This document shows, piece after piece, positions 26,376-46,664 of a stretch of 64,000 nt of DNA (positions within the stretch are counted from its first letter, which is position 1; each line of letters begins with the position of its first letter). A model generated the notes under the pieces. It saw nothing but the letters and a program-made list of their open reading frames with translations. It made no database searches and was not told where the DNA came from. The DNA comes from Chloropicon primus (taxonomy: Eukaryota; Chlorophyta; Chloropicophyceae; Chloropicales; Chloropicaceae), in assembly GCA_023205875.1 (NCBI GenBank), contig CP060758.1, positions 124,001 to 188,000 on the forward strand. The letters run 5' to 3'. The position numbers and the translations under genes were made by a program.

Positions 26376-28499
26376 TCACCGTCTCGGTTTTCTGCCGCCG
26401 TTGAACCAAGTGCCGAGAATTCTCACCAAACTCGGAGCGAAGGCCACGGTGAAGAACGTGCACGCAATTTCGAAGCGACGGGTGACCCAGATCCTACCCA
26501 AAGTCGTCTGCCCTTGCCCCCGTCTCTCGCCTTCTTTTTGAGAGACCCAATCCTCCGCCGTCTCCAAGCTCTCCTTTACCTTGAATCGGTACTGCTTCAG
26601 TATCTCCAGCAGGGACTCGTCGTCCTTGCGCAGGGGTCTCAAGTGAAGGGACGTCTGGAAGTTGTCCTTGTCCTCGGTTCGGTTCCACCAATCGCTGTCC
26701 CCGGGGGTGGTGAAGTTATAATGGTAACGAATCACCCTTATGAACTCAGGCAGGTTCTTCTCAAAGGTTGGGTTGTTCCCCGCGCCCATTAGCCCCAGGA
26801 CGCAGGGCTCGCCGAGAAGGAGCTTGTAGATGAAGTGGATGAACCAAAGGTCGTGCTCCCGATGCAGAGCCGCGAACCACATCTGCCAATCCAAACGAGG
26901 CTGGTGCGGAGCCGCCCAAGGAGGGGGGCGGCCGACGGGGCCTGGCTTGTACGTGAAATTGTAAGGAACCCAAACCTCGCCGTCCAGAGACCCTTGAATC
27001 TCTAGCTCTGGCCGCTCGATCCGGTCGCCTTGCCCCTCCACGTCCCCGACACCCGTCATTCTCCTGAACAAGCCGTACCCAGATACGATGTGCCACTCGG
27101 CAGACAGGTCGTATGCGCTCTTGACGGCTGGCCAAAGCTTCTTCGAGGCTCTTGGCGACAGCTGCGTGATTGGGACGAAACCTGCCGTGAAGACGCAGAC
27201 CACCAAAGCCATTACAGTGGCCTTCCACGCAATGTCCTTGACGTGCTCGGCGACGCCCTTGCCCTTCCTGACCAGCACGGCACCCAGCACGTCGTGAAGC
27301 CCGGCAAGGACGGTGGCGACGCCGTAAAAGGACAGGATCAGAGGAAGGTAGGCGTCAACAAGTCTCTGCAGAGAGCGCTTGGTCACAAGGAGATCGATGC
27401 TCGCATCGCCTGGGCCCAACTGGAAGTGGAACATCAGGTACCCGGTGTACGCAGCGAACGCCAGGCAGAACGTGTAAGACACCAAGTTGCTCTTCTGCAG
27501 CAAGTGGTACACCAGACCCAGGGGGCCCTTCTCATCCAGCGTGTCCAGAAGGGAGCGCTTCGATTCCTTTCCCGCCCGGGTTGCTTGCACCTCGCCCCCC
27601 TTCCCAAGGTCAAGCAGCGTCAAGCACAGCGCCACGGTGAGAAGGTTGAAGAAATTGTAGTTGCCCGTCACCAAGATGAAAGCTTGCAAGGTGATCTGGA
27701 CAACTGCAGCGAACTTCTGGACCGCGACGAAGGGCAGCAGTATCAGAACGGGAGCTGCGATCTCGATCCAGAGCGTTGCCGCAACAGAGAGCTTGAGCAG
27801 CAGCGGCGGCAAGTTGCTGAAGAACCAAGCGAGCGGCGTTGGGATGCACTGTGTCGCGAAGTGGTAGTGGCAGGCCGTCAAATTCAGCCATGTCGGGCAG
27901 TCCGCCTGAATTTTCACCACGCCACTCATCAGCATGAGCTTGAAGAGTATGAACCTGACGAGGAAGAGGGCTGCGAGCGGCGGCCTCTCCCTGCAGTGCC
28001 TTGAGCTCCACCGGGCAGACACCCCCAACCGAGCCAGGAAGATCGACGCAAACCCGATCTCCAGCAGGAGCGCGTCCCACTGGAAGGATAAGAAAGTCTG
28101 TCCCACCCGCATGACGGACAGGTACAGCAGGTACTGGATGAACATCAGCACACTGCCGCACCAACCGTAGCAGACGCTAACAAGGGAAGTGGCCACGCCC
28201 ATCAATACGACCGACTCCAGCACGACGTCGGCGTCGTACCCAAAATGCTTCACGCCCAGGACGACGAGGGAAGGATGCCGCTTCAGCACATCCAGCCCCG
28301 TCTCGAGTCCAGCGGTGTCTACCTGGTGCTCCAGCAGCCTCTCGATGGGAAGAATGCCTTCTCTCGAGTACAATCCTGGCAACTGGGTCCACAGGGAAAC
28401 GAAAGCGAAGAGGTAAACCAGAGATAGGAACCGCAAGAAGACATCCGCAGTGACCTCGTAGGTGGGCATTCCCACCAACCTGCCCCTCGCCTTGGCCAT
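26376..28499 (-). CDS. Lipase maturation factor-like ER membrane protein
   Basis: 707 residues, multipass. The N-terminus after MAKARGRLVGMPTYEV has many hydrophobic spans, and FLSLVYLFAFVSLWTQLPGL, YSREGILPIERLL, FLSFQWDALLLEIGF, LFLVRFILFKLMLMSGVVKI and YHFATQCIPTPLAWFF are signatures of the LMF1/LMF2 family. The C-terminal lumenal part keeps FRRMTGVG, RPELEIQGS, VPYNFTYKPGPVGRPPPW, APHQPRLDWQMWFAALH and FIYKLLLGEP. Animal LMF1 helps lipases fold in the ER; the algal role is unknown and may be broader. The length fits LMF2 (about 700). Single exon; all motifs look intact. Confidence 0.92.
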   Translation of the reverse strand: MAKARGRLVGMPTYEVTADVFLRFLSLVYLFAFVSLWTQLPGLYSREGILPIERLLEHQVDTAGLETGLDVLKRHPSLVVLGVKHFGYDADVVLESVVLMGVATSLVSVCYGWCGSVLMFIQYLLYLSVMRVGQTFLSFQWDALLLEIGFASIFLARLGVSARWSSRHCRERPPLAALFLVRFILFKLMLMSGVVKIQADCPTWLNLTACHYHFATQCIPTPLAWFFSNLPPLLLKLSVAATLWIEIAAPVLILLPFVAVQKFAAVVQITLQAFILVTGNYNFFNLLTVALCLTLLDLGKGGEVQATRAGKESKRSLLDTLDEKGPLGLVYHLLQKSNLVSYTFCLAFAAYTGYLMFHFQLGPGDASIDLLVTKRSLQRLVDAYLPLILSFYGVATVLAGLHDVLGAVLVRKGKGVAEHVKDIAWKATVMALVVCVFTAGFVPITQLSPRASKKLWPAVKSAYDLSAEWHIVSGYGLFRRMTGVGDVEGQGDRIERPELEIQGSLDGEVWVPYNFTYKPGPVGRPPPWAAPHQPRLDWQMWFAALHREHDLWFIHFIYKLLLGEPCVLGLMGAGNNPTFEKNLPEFIRVIRYHYNFTTPGDSDWWNRTEDKDNFQTSLHLRPLRKDDESLLEILKQYRFKVKESLETAEDWVSQKEGERRGQGQTTLGRIWVTRRFEIACTFFTVAFAPSLVRILGTWFNGGRKPRR

Positions 28500-29719
28500 C
28501 CTTCCGACGAACCCCGCATTAATATGTCATCCAAGAGCAGACATGCCGTTCTCGGTCGCCATGGAATGAATGGACGTCGTCTTGGTTTGGTGGTTGGTGT
28601 GCTTGCTTGAATGGGGATCCCTTACGACCTTACGACGACGACGACACCAAGAAGAGCAAAGCAAACATCATCATCATATCGAGTCCTTCACATTCCAAGA
28701 AGAAGAAGAAGAAGAAGAAGAGTCCAAGAATTCACTTCACTTCACTTCAATTCAATTCAATTCAACGAGGAGACAAGCTTGTTGAACAAGGACCGAGAGC
28801 GAAGAAAGCTTGTTGAATGCAATGCAATGCACAAAAGGCCACCACCAAAGCAATCAGTTTTGGACAACTAAAATTAAAACCAACCCAAACCTGAATGGAG
28901 TCGAGTCCTAGCCAAGGTCAAGGGTCGGTCGGTCTGTAAAGGGTAAAGCTCGGTCAAGTTCGATCAAGGTCGTCGTCTTGCCTTCCCTTCGAATCGCTTT
29001 CCTGTTTCATATAATAATAATAGATAAGCTCGCGAGGCGGACCAAGCAGGCAGACAGACAAACTCTGCGATAGTGTGAGCCGCTGCTGCTGCTGCTGCTG
29101 CTGCTGAAAAAGAAGAAGAAGAAAAAAAGTTTTTTTTTTCAGACGGAGTGACGCTTCATGACGAAGAAAAGACCTAATTAAAAACAAAACTTGAGTCAGA
29201 AGAAAGAGAACGAGGACGAACGGAGGACGAACGGAGGAGTGGAAGAGAGAGGAGAGGAGAGAGAGAGAGAGTCTTGGCCAAGATTACGACAACAACGCAA
29301 CGACGACGACGACGACGGACGACGGAGGAAGGAAGAAGGAATTGAAGAGGCGGAAACACGGAAAGAAGAGGCGGAAACACGAACGAATGGATCACGAACG
29401 AATAAATATAATAGAATTTAGAATTAGAATCAATCCTTGAGGATGAGAAGGGAGGAGGACAAGTAACTTGAATGACGCTGGTGCCTTGGCTCGTGGTGAT
29501 GGCAATATAGTGATTGCCGAAGCTTTTGATACTGTTAGCATGAATGATGCGTGAGATTGGTCTTCTCGTCCTGGACCCATGCAGACGGACCGATGCGGCT
29601 CTTTGTCTCTTCCCCCTCCTTCTTCTTCTTCTCCTTTCTTCCCGAGAACTTACTTCTGAGAAACTAACGTCGCATGAAGAATGATGACAACCTCGGCGAG
29701 ACCTGCTCGTGCATGGGAT
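28500..29719. other. Long gene-free, repeat-rich stretch
   Basis: Contains AAG trinucleotide runs (28698-28721), short CACTT and CAATT pentamer runs (28733-28770), a CTG run (29083-29105), poly-T (29129-29139) and GAC/GAG-rich segments (29215-29345). Open frames here are low complexity and I find no gene. The base composition is poorer in GC than in the neighbouring genes. It marks the left flank of the Fanzor neighbourhood. Confidence 0.6.
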
Positions 29720-30400
29720 GCCCGACACCGGCGCCATGTGGGACAGTCTCGCGGCGGCGCTCGTGGCGAAGGGCCACCGCGTGGTCGTGCCCGACATGCT
29801 TGGCTACGGCAAGACCTCCAAGCCGGCGGATCCGAAGCGCTACGCGGGGAGAAGATCTTTCCGGATATTCTCGAGCTGATCTCGAAGCTCGGCCTGCCCA
29901 AGTGCCACGTCGTCGGGCATGACTGGGGCGGCTACGTCGCGTGGGAGCTCGTCATCAACGCCCCGGACCAGTTCAAGAGCCACGTGGCCATCTCCATGAG
30001 CCACCCGCTCGTCTTCTCCACGAGCCTCAACCTCCAGAGCCTCCGCGACAACTGGTACATGTACCTCAACACGCAGGACGACATCGTTGACCTCTACACC
30101 AAGGACGACTGCGCGTTTTACCGGGAGTTCATCATCCCGACCCATCCGGAGGCGGACGAGGTCTGCGCCCGTCTCAAAGACCCGGTGGCCATGAATGGCA
30201 TGCGCAACTGGGATCGCGGCAACCCGCTCGCGTCGCTGTACCTCGCGGCACGTACCCCTGGTGCGCTGACGCCCTACTACACCAAGGTGGCCGTCCCCAC
30301 GATGGGTGTCTGGAGCGCCGGCGACACCTACCTCCTCGAGGAGCACATGCAGCAGTCGGGCGAGCACTGCGCGGACTTCGAGTACCGACGGTTCTCCAGG
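29720..30400 (+). pseudogene. Decayed epoxide hydrolase-like alpha/beta hydrolase
   Basis: Reads as an alpha/beta hydrolase of the epoxide hydrolase/haloalkane dehalogenase type. LLVHGMPDTGAMWDSLAAAL and VVVPDMLGYGKTSKP are in one frame (about 29705-29850). EKIFPDILELISKLGLPKCH, VVGHDWGGYVAWELV (nucleophile Asp) and the cap and core region to about 30390 are in another. There is at least one frameshift near 29850, no start codon before the first strand (a stop lies just upstream), and the C-terminal His loop is not found. It therefore looks 5'- and 3'-truncated and non-functional. High-GC third positions and the bacterial-type motif suggest a gene once acquired or captured; its intact source is not in this window. 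Confidence 0.75.
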
Positions 30401-30439
30401 TCGACCCTGCAGGTTACTACGCGGGTTACCATGCCTCCT

Positions 30440-30600
30440 GCGCTGGAACAAAGGATATCGCTCTTCCTTCGAACTCGACGCGTTACGGCTTGAGCCAGAC
30501 GATCAACGCGCTCCTTAGCACCGCGGACGAGGACGATGAAGAGGGTCCAAAGGTCTTCGACTTTCTCGTGTCGGGAGAGCTGTTACGAGGGGAGGGGAGA
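30440..30600 (+). pseudogene. Fragment resembling the NLE domain of YTM1/WDR12
   Basis: The frame reading IALPSNSTRYGLSQTINALL and then PKVFDFLVSGELLRG matches my memory of the N-terminal NLE domain of the ribosome-biogenesis WD protein YTM1/WDR12 (pattern I.VP..LTRYGLS..IN.LL....PFDFLI.GEL.R). After GELLRG the similarity stops, no WD repeats follow, and the frame ends at 30696. No start codon belongs to it. It is an isolated fragment of about 150 bp, fused in series with the hydrolase relic on the left and the Fanzor on the right. A chance match is unlikely given the order of motifs but cannot be excluded without search. Confidence 0.6.
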
Positions 30601-30782
30601 GGAAAGCCAAGTTTTGACACAATTTTGCAGGCTCTCGCCGATTTTGTAATCCGAGATATTAAGTTTTTGTTTTCAGTTGAATCCCTCCTCACCTGACGCC
30701 TCGCCTCACGTCCTCCTCGATCTCAAGAAAGATCTTATCCAGTGTCCTGCTTGGTTTCAACCTGGATCCATAGCCCTTGCCG

Positions 30783-32831
30783 CTACAGAGGGCGTCGCAG
30801 CGCTGGCGGCCAAATCTCGCGTGGGACAGACCAATTTTGTGCATGGAGGAAAGCACTGGCGATGGCGAGGATGTTGTCCGAGCCGTTATCGTCGCGGGGC
30901 ACTTCCATACTGCATTTGGGGCAGGACAAAACTCCGTACTGGGGACGTCCCTTCTTTGATGGTGGTCCGTTTCCTCGGCTTCTATCACTCTTGTGCACTC
31001 TCCGCAGCGCAGTGGAGATGTTCTTCTGAGAGCATGCTGCGCACATCTTGGAGGTGTTGTATTCATCGACGAAGAAGAATCTCCCTGGTGTGGTCTTCGT
31101 CACCAAAAACCTTTTGAGCCCGATGCAAGGCCCGGGAGGGCGTCCCCTGATGCCAGAGGGGAAGTTTGCGGCTCCGTAGAAGACGATGTGTGACGCCGTC
31201 GGGAAGAGTTTGCTTGCTATGAACTCCATAGTTCGCTGCTTTCGCCCAAAAGTCTCCAACCCTTTTCGACGCCAGCGCCGTTGCCCAAAAAAATCGATGG
31301 CGTTGGAGAGGAAGGTGAGCCGAGTCCCAATCGCCGCCTGGAGGCGATCTACACTTGTGAGCTTCAGAGAAATGGCGCGGTCGTTCAATTTCTGTTGGAG
31401 ATTGTTGGGGGCTCTGCTCAGCCACTGGTGTGCCAAAATATTCCTCTTCGTGAAACCACAGCGGTCGCGGTAAGCGGAGAGGTGAAGAGAAAAGGTCCTC
31501 TTCCTCCCCCTCTCCAGAATGTTCGCGTAGACGACAAAAATTCGGCCGGGATCAACGCCCACGGTGTTCCGGGGATCGAACTGAGAAGGCTTGGTGGCAC
31601 ACCGCTCCCCTTGGCCTATATAGTTGTTGTCGGGACGAGCGAGGATCACCTCTTCGACAACGACCACGACGCTGAGGCCATCGGTTCGAAAGTGCCTAGC
31701 GAATGCCTTGGTACGTCCATTCGTGTGGCCCTTCTTGGCGATGTTGTTCACCTTCTTGGTGAAAATCTTCTCCCACCCACGGCCACCATCATAGCCCCAG
31801 AGTTCCAGGCAAGATCGCGAGACATTGATCATTGGATACTGCACCCGGCAGACAGGCACCAGAGTGAAACGCTTGATCGGAAGGTCCGAGGCCTCTACCG
31901 TTTTGAGCATCATATACCTGAACACGACCATGTTTCTCTCTTGCTCCGCGGGGTCGAGAACGTTGTCGGTGCCGTGCATAAAGTCTGCAACGCCAAAGCC
32001 CTGAACGAGGGCCAGCTCGTTGTGGTAGTGTTGAACGAGGTCGGGGCTCCGGGGCTGCGACTCGCTCAAAAGGGCTGCTCGGAGAGCGGCAGCCTGGGAT
32101 TTGTTCAGTTGGTACTTTGCTCTCAGGTATTGCTTCATGTGATTGAAGGTCCCGTACTTGAGGAAGTTTGACCAATTCGTCCTGAGAACTTGTTCAGCTT
32201 CCGTGATGACATGCGACAGGAGCGCCCGCGATGGCAGACGCAGAGAGGTCTCGGCAGCTGTGGCGGCCTGAACCAACTCCGCCATGGATGCCTGGAGCAA
32301 TGTCCACTCCTCTGACGTTGATTCCCTCGAATTGGGCGTGTGGGAGACGGTGCGGAGGTAGTGACCTATCGAAACCCGATCCATCGCTGGAACACACCTC
32401 CAAAACCTCCTCTTGAGGAGTTGGATGTCCGCCACCGGCCCCCCCTCCCGCTCAGCCCTGAGTTGATTGAGCTCAGTCACCATCTCTCCGCACCGACGGT
32501 GAAAGGTTTCGAGATCAGCAGAAGCCCCGGGCAGTTCCCCAAGCCGACGAGCATGGTGGAGGGCCATCAACACCGTGCCGAGATGGGTTATCAACCCCAT
32601 TCTTCTTGAGGCATCCTCCAATTCGACCCCAAGGCTGTCCCGCAACCTGGGCTGGAGAGCTGAATGGAGAGCCATCTTATACGTCCTAAAAATTTTTTTC
32701 TTCTTCCCCTTCTTCTCCTTCTCCTTCTCCTTCTTCCCCTTCCTCCTCTTTGAATGGGATCGGCGAGGAGAACGCGAACCACGTAGACGCTTGGCAGTAG
32801 GACGTGAGGTCGAAGGGCCGTCGGAGGTCAT
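30783..32831 (-). CDS. Fanzor (eukaryotic TnpB-like RNA-guided nuclease)
   Basis: Intact single-exon frame of 682 residues. Residues about 10-50 are a Lys/Arg-rich nuclear-localisation-like tail (KRLRGSRSPRRSHSKRRKGK). Signatures of the TnpB/Fanzor RuvC nuclease follow: RuvC-I in VGVDPGRIFVVY (Asp427), the zinc ribbon C597xxC600 within DEYNTSKMCAAC and C637xxC640 in CPKC, and RuvC-III in PRDDNGSDNI (Asp647). The block where TnpB has its RuvC-II Glu reads IVFYGAANF with no Glu; Glu590 in DEYNTSK could be the alternative acid, matching the rearranged site reported for Fanzors as I recall. Family members use a guide RNA from the element's end to cut DNA and travel with diverse transposons. No transposase is seen nearby, so it may be a non-autonomous passenger or solitary. 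Confidence 0.9.
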   Translation of the reverse strand: MTSDGPSTSRPTAKRLRGSRSPRRSHSKRRKGKKEKEKEKKGKKKKIFRTYKMALHSALQPRLRDSLGVELEDASRRMGLITHLGTVLMALHHARRLGELPGASADLETFHRRCGEMVTELNQLRAEREGGPVADIQLLKRRFWRCVPAMDRVSIGHYLRTVSHTPNSRESTSEEWTLLQASMAELVQAATAAETSLRLPSRALLSHVITEAEQVLRTNWSNFLKYGTFNHMKQYLRAKYQLNKSQAAALRAALLSESQPRSPDLVQHYHNELALVQGFGVADFMHGTDNVLDPAEQERNMVVFRYMMLKTVEASDLPIKRFTLVPVCRVQYPMINVSRSCLELWGYDGGRGWEKIFTKKVNNIAKKGHTNGRTKAFARHFRTDGLSVVVVVEEVILARPDNNYIGQGERCATKPSQFDPRNTVGVDPGRIFVVYANILERGRKRTFSLHLSAYRDRCGFTKRNILAHQWLSRAPNNLQQKLNDRAISLKLTSVDRLQAAIGTRLTFLSNAIDFFGQRRWRRKGLETFGRKQRTMEFIASKLFPTASHIVFYGAANFPSGIRGRPPGPCIGLKRFLVTKTTPGRFFFVDEYNTSKMCAACSQKNISTALRRVHKSDRSRGNGPPSKKGRPQYGVLSCPKCSMEVPRDDNGSDNILAIASAFLHAQNWSVPREIWPPALRRPL

Positions 32832-33080
32832 GGTGTCGAAGTAGAGTTAATGTGGAAGTGCCCAGCCCCCCTCCCTCCCCCCCTCTCTCCTCTCCTCTCC
32901 TCTCCTCTCTTTTTTTGTGAGATGTTGTGGCTGTGGCTGTGGCTGTGGCTGTGGCTGTGGCTGTGGCTGTGGTTGTGGCTGTGGCTGTGGCTGTGGTTGT
33001 GGCTGTGGTCGTGGAAATTTTGAAAGTGTCATCGGAGACCACGACCCTCACCCTCAGTTGTGAACGTCCGTCGTCGCACC

Positions 33081-33110
33081 AGGCCGGTCGCTTGCCCGAG
33101 CGACCGGCCT
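33081..33110. repeat. Perfect 11-bp inverted repeat (hairpin)
   Basis: AGGCCGGTCGC, an 8-base loop, then GCGACCGGCCT. It is followed by a further GCCCGAGCGACC direct repeat. It lies 250 bp upstream of the Fanzor start. Confidence 0.85.
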
Positions 33111-33721
33111 GCCCGAGCGACCAGCACTTCCCTTGGCGACGCCGTGTGCCCATCACCATGGTGTGCCCAGCCATGATGAAGCTGCGCTTGATTAGTCGAG
33201 ACTGAGAGGGGTTGCGTTCTCGTTTTTTGTTTCCTTGTGTTTCTTTTTTAAGTGAACGCGCCCCCATAGTCGAGGCCACAGCTCGAAGACTCAAAGAGCG
33301 TGCGAACTCGACAGTCCCTGGCATCGGCGGGGTGATTGGTTGTGGACGATGAAAGGAGCAGCCTTGCGTGCCTACATGTTTCAAGACTCTTGATTCTGAA
33401 ACAGCCAACCAACCAAGCCTCGCCACCGCCGGGGTGAGCTCCGACACGCCTGCATGAAAGTGTTTTACACTCGGGGCAGCTCCTTCCTCTTCGGAGTGAG
33501 AGTAGTCCGGATGGCCGCTCCACTCAAGGCGTTTCGATTCGCTGGTGCCGGGCCGCATAGAATACAATCGAAGGTACCTGATGGGAGTAACCCTCCGGGG
33601 TAACTTTTGCGTGATGGTATCGTGTAATCAAATGATGAGAAGCAAACGTAGACGCAGCGCAGGCCGAAGCTAGGGCGAAGCCCTGGTGGAGCCCTGGTGG
33701 AGCCCTGCGGGTGCGTCATGA

Positions 33722-33749
33722 GTGTGATCGCTCTCACCAGCGATCACAC
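33722..33749. repeat. Perfect 11-bp inverted repeat (hairpin)
   Basis: GTGTGATCGCT, a 6-base loop (CTCACC), then AGCGATCACAC. CTGA followed by T occurs 19 bp downstream (33769-33773), a layout seen at some Helitron 3' ends, but this alone is weak evidence. Confidence 0.85.
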
Positions 33750-33934
33750 AAGGATTCATTTGCTAAATCTGATGTAATATGACACGATGATGATGTGGTG
33801 ATGGGGAGGAGGATGGAGAGAGAGTCTGATAACGGACGGACGTCTCGGTCTCGCTCATCACCTCATCACCATGGGGAGGAAGGTCTCGAGCGTTCAAGTC
33901 TGCGCCTTTGGTCATCGGGGATCAGGATCAAGAG

Positions 33935-33968
<34 letters not shown>

Positions 33969-34103
33969 CAGAGACAGACAGACAGAGAGAGTCTCCTCCA
34001 TGTGATGGTGATGGTGATGGTGATGGTGATGTGCTGTGCTTGTGCTGTGCTGGGATACAAACATGTACTGACTTTTGTAACCTTAATAAAGATGGTTGGG
34101 TGT

Positions 34104-36392
34104 TTACCTGTGCTCGTGCTTCAGGAATCGGAGGGCAAGGTAGAAGCACAGGCAGAAGACGGGCAAGTTAGCGGCAACGTAACCCAGGCTCTGCCACTTG
34201 CTCCTTCCGGCCAAGCCGAAGGTGTCGAGGACGCTCTCGCCCTTGACGGAGACGCACAGGTCCTCGCACTGGTTGTTCCCGCCAAGGATGGAGAGGCCAG
34301 CCGACTGCAGGCACATGCTGTCGTACGCGGCGACCTGGCTCACCGAGCAGGCCGTGAGCATGGACCTGTCGAACTCGTGGCCGCTGGAGCAGGTGGCCTC
34401 CATGAGGTCCTGGCCCGTGAGCATGCCATTCCCCAAGCCTTGGGAGAAGATGTTCATCATCACGGCCTGAGAGGAGACCCCGCTCTGGTTCATCTCGTAG
34501 CACTGGGGGAACACCTGCCCCTCGAACTGGTTGACCATCAGGGCGGAGAACCCCCACTGGACGTACGAGACGTTGTAGAGCCACTTCCACCACACCGGGA
34601 TCTTGTCCGCGAGCACCATGAACCCCCCGCAGAAGAAGTTCAAGGTCATCACCAGGGGGACGGCCGCCCCGGCGATCTCCACGTTCGGGGACGCGGAGGC
34701 CACCGCGAGCGTGAGCATCACCGCAGCGAAGTTCAGGGTCCACAGGGCCAGGTTGAAAAAGATGTACGCGTAAATGTGGTCCGACATGTTGCACGACCAG
34801 TACACGACCGGGGAGAACAAAAGGACCGCGAAGATTCCAGTGAACCCCTCGATGATGATCTTGTGGAGGACGTAGGAGATGACCCTGTAACAGGCGTCGT
34901 GCCTCTCTCTAAGGAAAACGGGCCTCTCCTCGATGAGGGTCGGCACGTACACAGAAGTCGTGAAGACGGCGGCCCCGACGGACACGAACAGGAGCGACGC
35001 CTGGGTCATCAGGCCGTGGGTGTCGTTCGTGCTGTTCGCCCAGAAGGTCGCCATGATGACGGCAAATATGAGGGCCAGGCCGATCCTCGTGCCGAGGAAC
35101 TGGGGGTCCTTCCAGGACGCGAACCCCCGGAACCCGACCATGATGCTCACCTCCGAGACGAACGAGTTGGAGTAGGCGCTCTCGGACAGGACGCTCGTGT
35201 CCGAGGTGTCCGACCTGAAGGATCGCATGGAGTCCAGGACCTCGGACCTGGCGGACTTGCCGTGGCTGGCCTCCGCCTCCAGCTGCATGCTTCGGACGCT
35301 GGACATGTCGACGTTGTTCAGGATGTTCTTGGCCCACAGCACGTTCCTTGCGTGGAGCTGGGAGCTCTTGTACGCCGTGATGATGGTGTGGGACTCCGAC
35401 GAGGACCCGGTGGTCACCCTGGGGGTGAAGGCCGCGAGGACCCCGCCCCCCACTGTCTCCAGCAGGTACTCGGCGACGTTGTCGTACCCCTTGTACTCGT
35501 GCCCCTGGGCCACAAAGTAGTCCTTGACCTGGGACCTCCCCTCCCCAAAGTAAGCGACGCTCCCGGCGCGCAGGATGATCGCCGCCCCGAACAGGTCGAA
35601 GATCGCCGCGCTGGGCTGGTGGATGGTGCAGAGCACCGTCCTCCCCTCGTCCGCGAGGGCCTTGACCGCCTCCATGACGTCCAGCGCGATGGCGGAGTCC
35701 AGCCCGGAGGTGGGCTCGTCCAAGAACAGGCACTGGGGGTCGTTGATCAGGCCGATCGCGATGGACACCCTCTTGAGCTCCCCCCCGCTGACCCCCCTGT
35801 TCAGGGGCCCACCGATCTTCGTGTTCATGGCCTTGAAGAGCCCCATCTTCTCGATCACCTCGAGGGCCCGGGACCGCTTGTCGACGTACGCCATGATCTT
35901 GGGCAGCTTGAGCATCGCGGTGAACACGATGCACTCGAAGACCGTGAAGGAGGACAGGAGGGCGTCCTGCTGCTGGACGTACGCCGTGTCCCTCTTCAGC
36001 CTCAGGCTCGTGCGCTCCTTGCCGTCGAACAGAACCTGGCCCGAGATGTTCCCGGTGGTCTTCCTCCCCGAGATGACGTCAAGCAAGCTCGTCTTGCCCG
36101 CGCCGGAGGGCCCCAGCAGGGCGTACATCGACCCCGGCCAGATCACCCCGGTGATCCCCTTGAGCACGTGGCGCTTCGCGCGCTTCTTCCTCCGGGGGCA
36201 GAGGGTGGGCCAACCCCCCTCCTCGATGTCGAGCGAGAGGTCGTGCAGGGAGATGGTGATGCCCGCCGACAAAGACGACGACGGCGCACCATGGGCAATG
36301 ACCCCGCCCCCCTTGCTCGCCACCTCCCCGACGTCGATGCTGAGTTCCCCCCCCTTCCCCTTCCCGTCGACGGCCCCCTCCCCACTCGACAT
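34104..36392 (-). CDS. ABCG half-transporter
   Basis: 762 residues from the ATG at 36392. N-terminal ATPase: Walker A GPSGAGKTS (about 93-101), Q-loop in AYVQQQDALL, signature VSGGELKRVSIAIGL, Walker B CLFLDEPTSGLDS and the switch His in CTIHQPS. The C-terminal half has about six membrane spans with an extracellular loop near the end carrying several Cys. The ATPase-then-membrane order defines the ABCG (WBC) half-size exporters, which dimerise to move lipids, sterols or small organics across the plasma or other membranes. The substrate is not predictable here. A linker of about 100 Ser-rich residues between the domains (SDTSDTSVLSESAYSNSFVS) may be phosphorylated. Single exon. Confidence 0.95.
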   Translation of the reverse strand: MSSGEGAVDGKGKGGELSIDVGEVASKGGGVIAHGAPSSSLSAGITISLHDLSLDIEEGGWPTLCPRRKKRAKRHVLKGITGVIWPGSMYALLGPSGAGKTSLLDVISGRKTTGNISGQVLFDGKERTSLRLKRDTAYVQQQDALLSSFTVFECIVFTAMLKLPKIMAYVDKRSRALEVIEKMGLFKAMNTKIGGPLNRGVSGGELKRVSIAIGLINDPQCLFLDEPTSGLDSAIALDVMEAVKALADEGRTVLCTIHQPSAAIFDLFGAAIILRAGSVAYFGEGRSQVKDYFVAQGHEYKGYDNVAEYLLETVGGGVLAAFTPRVTTGSSSESHTIITAYKSSQLHARNVLWAKNILNNVDMSSVRSMQLEAEASHGKSARSEVLDSMRSFRSDTSDTSVLSESAYSNSFVSEVSIMVGFRGFASWKDPQFLGTRIGLALIFAVIMATFWANSTNDTHGLMTQASLLFVSVGAAVFTTSVYVPTLIEERPVFLRERHDACYRVISYVLHKIIIEGFTGIFAVLLFSPVVYWSCNMSDHIYAYIFFNLALWTLNFAAVMLTLAVASASPNVEIAGAAVPLVMTLNFFCGGFMVLADKIPVWWKWLYNVSYVQWGFSALMVNQFEGQVFPQCYEMNQSGVSSQAVMMNIFSQGLGNGMLTGQDLMEATCSSGHEFDRSMLTACSVSQVAAYDSMCLQSAGLSILGGNNQCEDLCVSVKGESVLDTFGLAGRSKWQSLGYVAANLPVFCLCFYLALRFLKHEHR

Positions 36393-44503: not shown

Positions 44504-45020
44504 CGCTCTCCTCTCTCTCTCTCTCCTCGCCGCTGCGCTGCTCTAGAGCTCCCCTCTCTTTGACGGCGGAAGGCCTTGTTCAGCGTTCCTTTTTGTGACG
44601 TTAATTATATAAGGACAGACGCATCGGCGCATCGCGTCTCTCCAAGGAAGGAAGGGAGAAAGAGGGAGTGGAAAGTGGTCGGGCGTCTGTCTGGCGTCGG
44701 GTTTGACCTTAACTGCCCTTCCCCTTCCTCCCTTCGTTTCCTTTGTTGCTCATCTCCCCTCCATTGCGTTGGCCTTCTCCTTCCTCTCGTTGGTTTCTGG
44801 TGGATTGGATTTTCCCTTCCGCTGCATCGCATCATAACGGCCGAGCACGAGGGCGAACGAGGACGAGAGAGAAACAGAAGAGGCCGGGAGCGCGCGGCGG
44901 AGAAAGAGAGAGACGGAGGATAGGACAGAAGGAGCCTTCGTCTCTTGCTCTTTCGAACGAGCCCTTGCGCGACAAGAAGGACCCGGTGGTGAGGATCATC
45001 TGAGGAGCACGGGCGTGAAG
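44504..45020. other. Divergent promoter region, bL12 and ankyrin-type gene
   Basis: Contains a CT tract abutting the bL12 start, TATATAAGG on the plus strand at about 44606-44614 and a dispersed palindromic element (44936-45001) just before the plus-strand start. Confidence 0.6.
44936..45001 (-). repeat. Dispersed palindromic element, copy 6
   Basis: On the minus strand: arm CCTCACCACCGGGTCCTTCT, core GCGCAAGGGCTC then GTTCGAAAGAGCAAGAGACG. About 20-85 bp upstream of the ankyrin-type gene, antisense to it. Confidence 0.8.
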
Positions 45021-46664
45021 ATGGAGGAGACGAAGGAGAGCAAGAGGCAGAGGAGGGAGGGCAGAAATGCGTTGGAGGTGCTGCCGGAGCGGGCGTGGCT
45101 CCTGGTCTTGAAGAAGCTGAGCCCCTACGACCGGGTCGCTTTCGGGTTGACCTGCAAGACGTTCCTCGCGGCGGTGACGGCGACGGCGAGCCCCGAGTGG
45201 AAGAAGGTTGCTCTTCCTCTGAGGACGGACCTGACGAGAGAGAGGTTGTTCGAGCAGATGCCTTGCTTCAGTTTGGGTTGGTTCCAGTGGGTGTTTCGCT
45301 CGTTCAAAAGGAAAAAGGGAGCACCGGGTGATCGGAGAAGTAAAGAGTACTACGGGCACTTGTACGACTCTGACCTGATGCACCTCGCCGCTTTCCAGGG
45401 CAGCAAGAAGGTGATGGAGTGGTTGGTGTGCCAAGGGATCCCTTTGGATATCATGCTCACGTATCCTCATGGAGTAGTTGCAGCTGCAGGAGCTGCTGCA
45501 GGAGGTCACATTGATGTGCTGGAATGGTTGAGGAGCGAGGGTCCGCCTTGTGGTTGGGACTTTAGGGCTTGTCATGAGGCAGCTGAAGGAGGTCACCTTG
45601 GTGTTCTGCAATGGCTTCGAAGCCAGGACCAGAATCTGAAATGGCGTTGGGACGAGGACACTTGTGCTGGTGCAGCTCGAGGGGGTCACCTTCACGTTCT
45701 GCAGTGGCTTCGAAGTCAGGACCCGCCTTGCCCTTGGGACGTGTGGACTTGTTCTGCTGCAGCTGCAGGAGGTCACCTTCACGTTCTGCAGTGGCTTCGA
45801 AGTCAGGACCCGCCTTGCCCTTGGGACGTGTGGACTTGTTCTGCTGCAGCTGCAGGAGGTCACCTTCACGTTCTGCAGTGGCTTCGAAGCCAGGATCGGC
45901 CTTGCCCTTGGGACTGGAGGACTTGTGCTTATGCAGCTCAAGGAGGCCATCTTGACGTTCTGCAGTGGGCTCGAAGTCAGGAATCGCCTTGTGAGTGGGG
46001 CTACAAGACTTGTTTTGCTGCAGCTGGAGGAGGTCACCTTGATGTTCTGCAGTGGCTCCGAAGCCAGAACCCGCCTTGTGATTGGGACGAGGACACTTGT
46101 AAAGAGGCAGCTCGAGGAGGTAACCTTGATGTTCTGCAGTGGGCTGGAAGCCAGGATCCGCCTTGCCCTTGGAACGAGAGGACATGTTCTAATGCAGCTT
46201 GGGGAGGCCACCTTGGCGTTCTGCAGTGGGTTCGAAGCCAGGATCCGCCTTGTGGTTGGGACAAGTGGACTTGTTCTAATGCAGCTGAAGGAGGTCACCT
46301 TGAAATCTTGCAGGGGGTTCGAAGTCAGGATCCGCCTTGTGAGTGGGACGAGGAGACTTGTCAGCATGCAGCTGCAGGAGGCCACCTTGGTGTTCTGCAG
46401 TGGCTCCGAAGCCAGGACCCACCTTGTGATTGGAACGAGAGGACTTGTTCTTATGCAGCTCAAGAAGGTCACCTTCGCGTTCTGCAGTGGGCTCGAAGCC
46501 AGGACCCGCCTTGTTATTGGGACGAAAAATATTGCGTGTGGAGGGCGCAGGAGAACAATCACGAGGACATCGTCGTGTGGATGATGGAGACTGCTGCTGC
46601 TGAGTGGGAAGAAAGTTCCACCAGTGAGAGTGGTGATAACAATAACGCTATCACCTCCGAATGA
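45021..46664 (+). CDS. F-box-like protein with tandem ankyrin-type repeats
   Basis: 547 residues from the ATG at 45021. Residues about 15-55 (EVLPERAWLLVLKKLSPYDR, FGLTCKTFLAAV) look like an F-box. From about residue 120 a run of some 13 repeats of 32-33 residues follows, each like GGHLHVLQWLRSQDPPCPWD then WTCSAAAA. This is an ankyrin variant with a conserved Cys-Trp loop, found in large families in several algae, protists and giant viruses. Two adjacent repeats are identical in sequence, so the array is still expanding or converting. Such proteins may present substrates to SCF ubiquitin ligases; substrates unknown. It ends in an acidic Ser/Asn tail. Single exon, intact. Confidence 0.85.
   Translation: MEETKESKRQRREGRNALEVLPERAWLLVLKKLSPYDRVAFGLTCKTFLAAVTATASPEWKKVALPLRTDLTRERLFEQMPCFSLGWFQWVFRSFKRKKGAPGDRRSKEYYGHLYDSDLMHLAAFQGSKKVMEWLVCQGIPLDIMLTYPHGVVAAAGAAAGGHIDVLEWLRSEGPPCGWDFRACHEAAEGGHLGVLQWLRSQDQNLKWRWDEDTCAGAARGGHLHVLQWLRSQDPPCPWDVWTCSAAAAGGHLHVLQWLRSQDPPCPWDVWTCSAAAAGGHLHVLQWLRSQDRPCPWDWRTCAYAAQGGHLDVLQWARSQESPCEWGYKTCFAAAGGGHLDVLQWLRSQNPPCDWDEDTCKEAARGGNLDVLQWAGSQDPPCPWNERTCSNAAWGGHLGVLQWVRSQDPPCGWDKWTCSNAAEGGHLEILQGVRSQDPPCEWDEETCQHAAAGGHLGVLQWLRSQDPPCDWNERTCSYAAQEGHLRVLQWARSQDPPCYWDEKYCVWRAQENNHEDIVVWMMETAAAEWEESSTSESGDNNNAITSE

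Follow-up and report, generated by a model that had tools for sequence, protein, structure and literature searches.

Does the long open frame found in the alga Chloropicon primus encode an intact Fanzor, is the gene still alive, and what kind of element carries it? Fanzors are eukaryotic relatives of RNA-guided DNA-cutting enzymes. The window, i.e., the whole stretch of 64,000 nucleotides under analysis, corresponds to bases 124001–188000 of contig C5, and the genome searched comprised 17,584,162 bp in 20 contigs. A preliminary description of the locus had proposed a Fanzor gene in an algal genome, which agrees with the host. The gene (682 codons and a stop) occupies positions 30783–32831 on the minus strand, with its ATG at 32831. 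An open-frame reading and a scripted residue check confirmed that the frame is uninterrupted and that each residue named in the preliminary description bears the number given to it there. D427 lies within GVDPG and represents RuvC-I, the paired zinc ribbon cysteines C597, C600, C637 and C640 are all in place, and the RuvC-III D647 sits in PRDD, as had been proposed for all three features. The N-terminus, previously called strongly basic, has 22 K/R among residues 1–50. The earlier reading of the catalytic glutamate was correct. E590, located within VDEYNTSKMC, had been named as a candidate substitute for the usual glutamate, and this was upheld, but the apparent replacement at IVFYGAANF (YGAANF starts at residue 552) is not an oddity. 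E590 is the standard Fanzor position, and the glutamate that looked replaced is normal for Fanzors because its relocation is a published hallmark of the family.

The DPG at RuvC-I (D427) and the glutamate six residues ahead of the zinc finger (E590-x6-C597) correspond to Fanzor signatures described in PMC10711439, which also gives TDG as a signature of Fanzor1. The latter motif of the WED domain is formed by T383-D384-G385 and is kept in two remote relatives, P0002 and P0003. The Fanzor/TnpB motif printed in PMC3627910 (D-X125-275-[TS][TS]-X-X-C4 zinc finger-X-RD) was matched in the 682-aa protein by a regular expression written from that paper. A comparison with Fanzor/TnpB profiles had been suggested in the preliminary description, and the Pfam zinc ribbon PF07282 was matched with an E of 6.4e-7 and 29.9 bits (cut-off 26.3). 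The NCBIfam guided_TnpB profile gave a weak match of 16.3 bits, far below its cut-off of 100.

Searches of protein collections returned the protein of the window itself and the two remote relatives. P0003 was found by profile search with an E of 1.3e-8; P0002 had a search E of 0.74, yet it is co-linear, with 22% identity over residues 204–653. An IMG/VR scan gave 46 pattern matches with no relative among them. In a single-sequence phmmer search of the Protein Data Bank, no solved chain was matched at E up to 10. Among solved structures, P0002 alone found nothing, P0003 alone had a single match below E 0.01, to 9b0l, and a three-row profile did not reach SpuFz1. A four-row alignment of two Chloropicon copies with P0002 and P0003 keeps TDG 383–385, D427-P-G, G553, E590, T593-S594, C597, C600, C637, C640 and R646-D647. 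Used as a profile, it retrieved six PDB sequences within an E limit of 10. The best of them was the TnpB-like protein L79 (9b0l), with an E of 0.0004 over the zinc ribbon only, followed by SpuFz1 (8gkh) with an E of 0.0011 over profile positions 416–685, which cover the entire RuvC part. The remaining matches were weak and partly unrelated, with plainly unrelated chains from E 0.067 up. In the SpuFz1 match (chain offset 394), D427/E590/D647 align with D383/E541/D606, which, according to PMC10432273, bind the magnesium ions. Only the four-row profile reached SpuFz1, so this match depends in part on the contribution of P0002 and P0003. When the profile was compared with that of the genome's own Fanzor2 family, the two matched over the zinc ribbon with a probability of 94.7. 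The N-terminal OrfB_IS605 helix-turn-helix of the Fanzor2 type (PF12323) was matched in that second family, unlike in the protein of the window, which gave no PF12323 match at E up to 1. The PF07282 match, the motifs shared with P0002 and P0003 and the profile match to SpuFz1 thus bear out the Fanzor identity and specify it further: judged by its sequence, the 682-codon gene encodes a Fanzor1. The protein's 90% cluster spans three contigs, which may point to a further strain with a copy elsewhere in its genome.

The preliminary description had also placed the gene on a transposon, and it was found to be multi-copy with defined ends. Among four near-full-length copies in the genome, two are intact and two are broken. 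The second open copy (copy B, C5:819733) shows 98% identity to that of the window; the frame of the C2 copy (copy C, C2:358573) at C2:358125–360168 is broken by a one-base indel, and the copy at C13:71780–73756 is decayed. In addition, 5' pieces of Fanzor1 are present on C1 and C19. The core element (30707–33781, minus strand) is common to copies B and C, and BLAST matches among the copies share its end points. In gene sense, its right edge is the GACGTG at about 30707 and its left edge lies at 33778–33781. Close to the latter, fixed terminus, a perfect palindrome with an 11-bp stem, GTGTGATCGCT...AGCGATCACAC, was identified at 33722–33749 on the plus strand. The terminus itself bears an ATG (33779–33781, plus strand), with which the flanking direct repeats of B, C and the locus L035 start. 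The whole insertion in the window is longer than the gene, extending from about 28542 to 33781.

The two ends of the element behave differently. The hairpin end, queried with 319 bases of which 19 lie outside the element, gave 24 matches at 20 places, the window included, vs. four matches, again with the window included, for a query of equal length from the opposite end. The copies stop at many different internal points, so that one-sided truncation and a 3' subterminal hairpin, both of them Helitron/Helitron2 features, are present in this element. Two arrangements of the hairpin end were found outside the common pattern. On C2, a solo hairpin end in inverted orientation (C2:355074–355318) is separated by about 6 kb from that of the Fanzor copy at C2:358125–361134, and among the loci scanned, only a 0.9-kb copy on C19 (L014, 3596–4541) bears the 11-bp terminus in inverted form at its two ends. 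A GCTGTG-type repeat tract occupies 32924–33014 in the leader of the element, upstream of the Fanzor gene. Elsewhere in the window, at 45015–46664, an ankyrin-like repeat gene, labelled by eye, has a long open frame on its opposite strand.

The gene could be a dead passenger, an ordinary relic of a transposable element without nuclease function. We consider this possible but doubtful, and its odds are not exclusive of any reading of how the element moves. Such a state would fit the two broken copies among four and the 17 non-synonymous vs. three synonymous changes between the open copies, a neutral-like ratio (p 0.44), with dN/dS being uninformative between these copies at 1% divergence. Against it, the catalytic residues are intact in both open copies and substitutions are rarer in the frame (20/2048) than in the leader (20/950, p 0.016). 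Indels are in frame in 3/3 cases in the coding part and in 3/9 upstream (p 0.18), which points the same way. Between the open copies, the last 309 codons carry three changes vs. 17 in the first 372 (p 0.004), a difference which either recombination or constraint could explain. The copy data suggest a recent spread of the element, with nuclease function being predicted only.

To characterize the insertion signature, 13 loci were scanned for target repeats with the hairpin end read as the 3' end, and 14 terminus matches were obtained in 12 of them. The constancy of the ATG is partly built in, as the scan pattern included it. Direct repeats starting at the terminal ATG were 14 bp long at C5:819733, 12 bp at L035 (a 238-bp copy) and 8 bp at C2, and the other scanned termini had repeats of 9 bp or less, or none. 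Among the 14 matches, only those at B and L035 had repeats longer than chance, 8–9 bp being within chance for 8 kb; the 8-bp repeat of C2 still counts, because it is positioned at the outer end of a captured piece. No direct repeat was detected in the scan for the window's own copy. A TAATATG occurs both at 28520–28526, just outside the mosaic described below, and at the element end, but was rejected as a target duplication, since 7 bp is too weak.

A source of the movement functions was sought by profile searches. Helitron_like_N (PF14214) had no match in the genome, and the control genomes were equally silent. The sole PIF1-helicase match (C8:497136–497747) falls in a 1316-aa open frame, which could encode either a helicase of the host or a Helitron RepHel. 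The T-rich target and the asymmetric terminal inverted repeats of Helitron2 were not seen when the element ends were read by eye, and because of this target rule and these terminal repeats the element was not assigned to Helitrons. A search with the RVT_1 family for reverse transcriptases gave one match in the genome, in a frame which we take to be telomerase-like from its motifs.

The variable end of the element in the window is joined to DNA from elsewhere. The region 28542–30706, downstream of the gene, is a mosaic of five fragments 98–100% identical to five other loci. The first fragment (30587–30706, 120 bp), which abuts the right edge, is 98% identical to C8:240496–240614, with the query cut at 30706. 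It is followed by fragments matching C7:179377–179518 (30453–30594, 142 bp, 100%) and C15:91143–91219 (30384–30460, 77 bp, 99%). The fourth (29686–30390, plus strand, 705 bp) is 99% identical to C3:813690–814399 and codes for part of an alpha/beta-hydrolase, with a match above the Pfam cut-off, and the fifth (28542–29694, 1153 bp) is 99% identical to C15:117807–118971; all but the fourth are given without strand. From 28541 back to the query end at 28300, no further matches were found. The alpha/beta-hydrolase frame at 29681–30493 was rejected as a native gene, being largely the fragment from C3 joined to others. A part of the fifth fragment, about 29247–29549, resembles many short repeats at 73–91%, and most of the other ~110 BLAST matches are short, 73–91% identical ones to this repeat. 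In a control of 4,497 native flanking bases, 17 other matches were obtained, none at 95% or more, and those of 90–94% span 35–48 bp. Neighbouring fragments overlap by 8, 8, 7 and 9 bp as read from BLAST end points at 98–100% identity, in comparison with a mean of 0.7 bp for random joins if exact matches are assumed. By parsimony, the other loci would be the donors and the mosaic in the window the copy.

Captured DNA was also found in other copies. The first 356 bp of the mosaic in the window recur in the C13 copy with 95% identity, and captured DNA has therefore moved again. Copies B and C instead carry, joined at GACGTG, a piece of about 420 bp from an acetoacetate-decarboxylase-like gene, with a match above the Pfam cut-off; this junction was taken from the alignment with the putative donor. 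On C3, the decarboxylase-like frame runs on across the breakpoint. The captured piece retains a 167-bp GTAAGT...CAG stretch, a putative intron. In the C1 copy, the element breaks off within the Fanzor frame and is followed by 1.65 kb matching C1:832566–834210 at 98% identity, the overlap being 5 bp. This piece is WD40-like in gene sense, with WD40 matches below the Pfam cut-offs. Where orientation is known, two captured genes follow the polarity of the element and one, the WD40-like, runs against it, a small sample. Carriage of the copies' own flanks, considered for the window/C13 and C5:819733/C2 pairs, was ruled out, as the DNA comes from elsewhere. A truncated copy of the element (C3:594653–595402) lies upstream of the decarboxylase-like stretch that copies B and C share with C3, at a distance of about 53 bp, and the captured piece of the C2 copy reaches to about 4 bases from the end of this truncated copy.

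The protein family, the multi-copy state, the fixed and variable ends, the direct repeats at three copies and the mosaics were observed directly. The best explanation for the carrier, to which we give a probability of about 0.75, is a non-autonomous Helitron-like element capturing host DNA, in which the Fanzor1 gene is antisense if the hairpin end is the 3' end. Such an element would keep its hairpin end fixed, while the opposite end would vary by truncation and by the addition of host DNA. Host fragments may join at the variable end by short-homology repair (filler DNA) or by template switching and would then move on with the element. The movement would be of the rolling-circle type, driven by a putative transposase encoded elsewhere. 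The Fanzor protein is predicted to cut under RNA guidance by analogy with solved Fanzor1s, and its role in the life cycle of the element is something that we can only infer.

Movement by LINE/SINE-like reverse transcription, with template switching onto host RNAs as the origin of the mosaics, appears unlikely. A fixed 3' end, 5'-truncated copies and target repeats of 8–14 bp would fit it, the short-homology chimeras look like template jumps, and two captured genes are sense to the element. An RNA route is nevertheless disfavoured, because the decarboxylase-like piece keeps its putative intron, the WD40-like piece runs against the polarity of the element, and the genome's sole RVT_1 match is telomerase-like. 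A cut-and-paste DNA transposon that lost its second terminal repeat is more improbable still: the C19 copy with its inverted termini (CATATTACATC ... GATGTAATATG, 935 bp apart), the second inverted hairpin end on C2 (C2:355074, 6 kb away) and the genome's Fanzor2 family, which is of such a kind with 5-bp duplications, speak for it, but the repeat lengths vary (14, 12 and 8 bp) instead of being fixed, the other scanned loci have no second terminus within one mismatch, and the bases beside the C19 termini differ from each other on visual inspection.

The position of the captured DNA invites a further suggestion, namely that it re-aims the Fanzor, with a candidate guide copied from another locus in each copy. 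The 76 bp from the stop codon to the right edge (30707–30782, minus strand) would be part of the guide RNA scaffold, if one exists, and the right edge is where, by analogy, a TnpB-type guide would start. In both right-edge capture events (window/C13 and C5:819733/C2), foreign DNA starts within a base or two of this edge. The decarboxylase-like gene on C3, still intact and identical next to the edge, would be an example of a candidate guide source. The GACGTG shared, in an adjacent position, by the C3 site and the element edge speaks against this suggestion, as by TnpB logic the site should resemble self. RNA folding was scanned in 120 segments of 120 nt, with copies too alike for covariation. 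The lowest z (-4.1) was obtained for the segment containing the palindrome with the 11-bp stem, and segments starting near the right edge fold unremarkably (z from -1.5 to +1.7). A scan of 29500–34500 against Rfam gave no match. Re-aiming by capture is a highly speculative idea, with odds that we put very low; if true, capture would reprogram an RNA-guided nuclease.

Fanzor2 elements of C. primus are already in print (PMC10711439), and 25 IS605-like genes have been counted in this species (PMC6731263). In the main text of PMC10711439, the mentions of Chloropicon concern Fanzor2. Among the titles and abstract openings returned by searches of largely open-access main texts, none dealt with C. 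primus Fanzor1 or with the capture of genes by an element bearing a Fanzor, and the C. primus Fanzor1 gene may already stand in some published list. In the literature searched, a divergent open Fanzor1 is thus added to a species cited for Fanzor2. One small genome with both Fanzor types on two carriers should be useful for questions of the origin and spread of Fanzor1. The gene-capturing carrier is more interesting than the Fanzor1 gene. It shows that an element with a Fanzor can collect and remobilise other genomic fragments, through which new genes might arise, and new guides as well, should the guide boundary lie where it appears to.

In the genome searched here, 33 zinc-ribbon matches of 66–70 bits (e.g., C2:1703892, C3:125436 and loci L055–L061) belong, judging by the copies read, to the Fanzor2 family. 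Its element is about 2.65 kb long, with TGTTG...CATAACA ends and 5-bp duplications in the seven copies read, and pairwise dN/dS among six copies is 0.46–1.02. This element seems to be the same cut-and-paste Fanzor2 that the literature describes for C. primus. The Fanzor1 described here shares with it the species, the zinc ribbon and the glutamate six residues ahead, but represents a different type of protein and a different carrier. With the Fanzor1s SpuFz1, GtFz1 and PpFz1, it has in common the TDG, the DPG at RuvC-I, the relocated glutamate, the C4 zinc ribbon and the RuvC-III D, as these are described in PMC10432273 and PMC11423790, although it is remote in sequence from the solved proteins, with no phmmer match at E up to 10.

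As in gene-capturing Helitrons, for which the filler-DNA model reports junction homologies of 2–13 bp (PMC6544945), host fragments were acquired with short junction homologies; unlike the captures described there, the fragments in C. primus are located beyond the right edge of the Fanzor-bearing core. The closest known systems in their architecture are CRe-1/2/3, the Fanzor1-bearing Helitron2 elements of Chlamydomonas reinhardtii (PMC3627910). According to that account, they too are non-autonomous, with a hairpin near one, nearly always present end and truncation at the other, target duplications of variable length and extra non-Fanzor DNA at the variable end. They differ from the element of C. 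primus in their T-rich target, their asymmetric terminal repeats and a matching Helitron, none of which was found in C. primus. CRe-1/2/3 are described in PMC3627910 with short segments of such extra DNA, whereas the DNA captured in C. primus is a mosaic of several loci.
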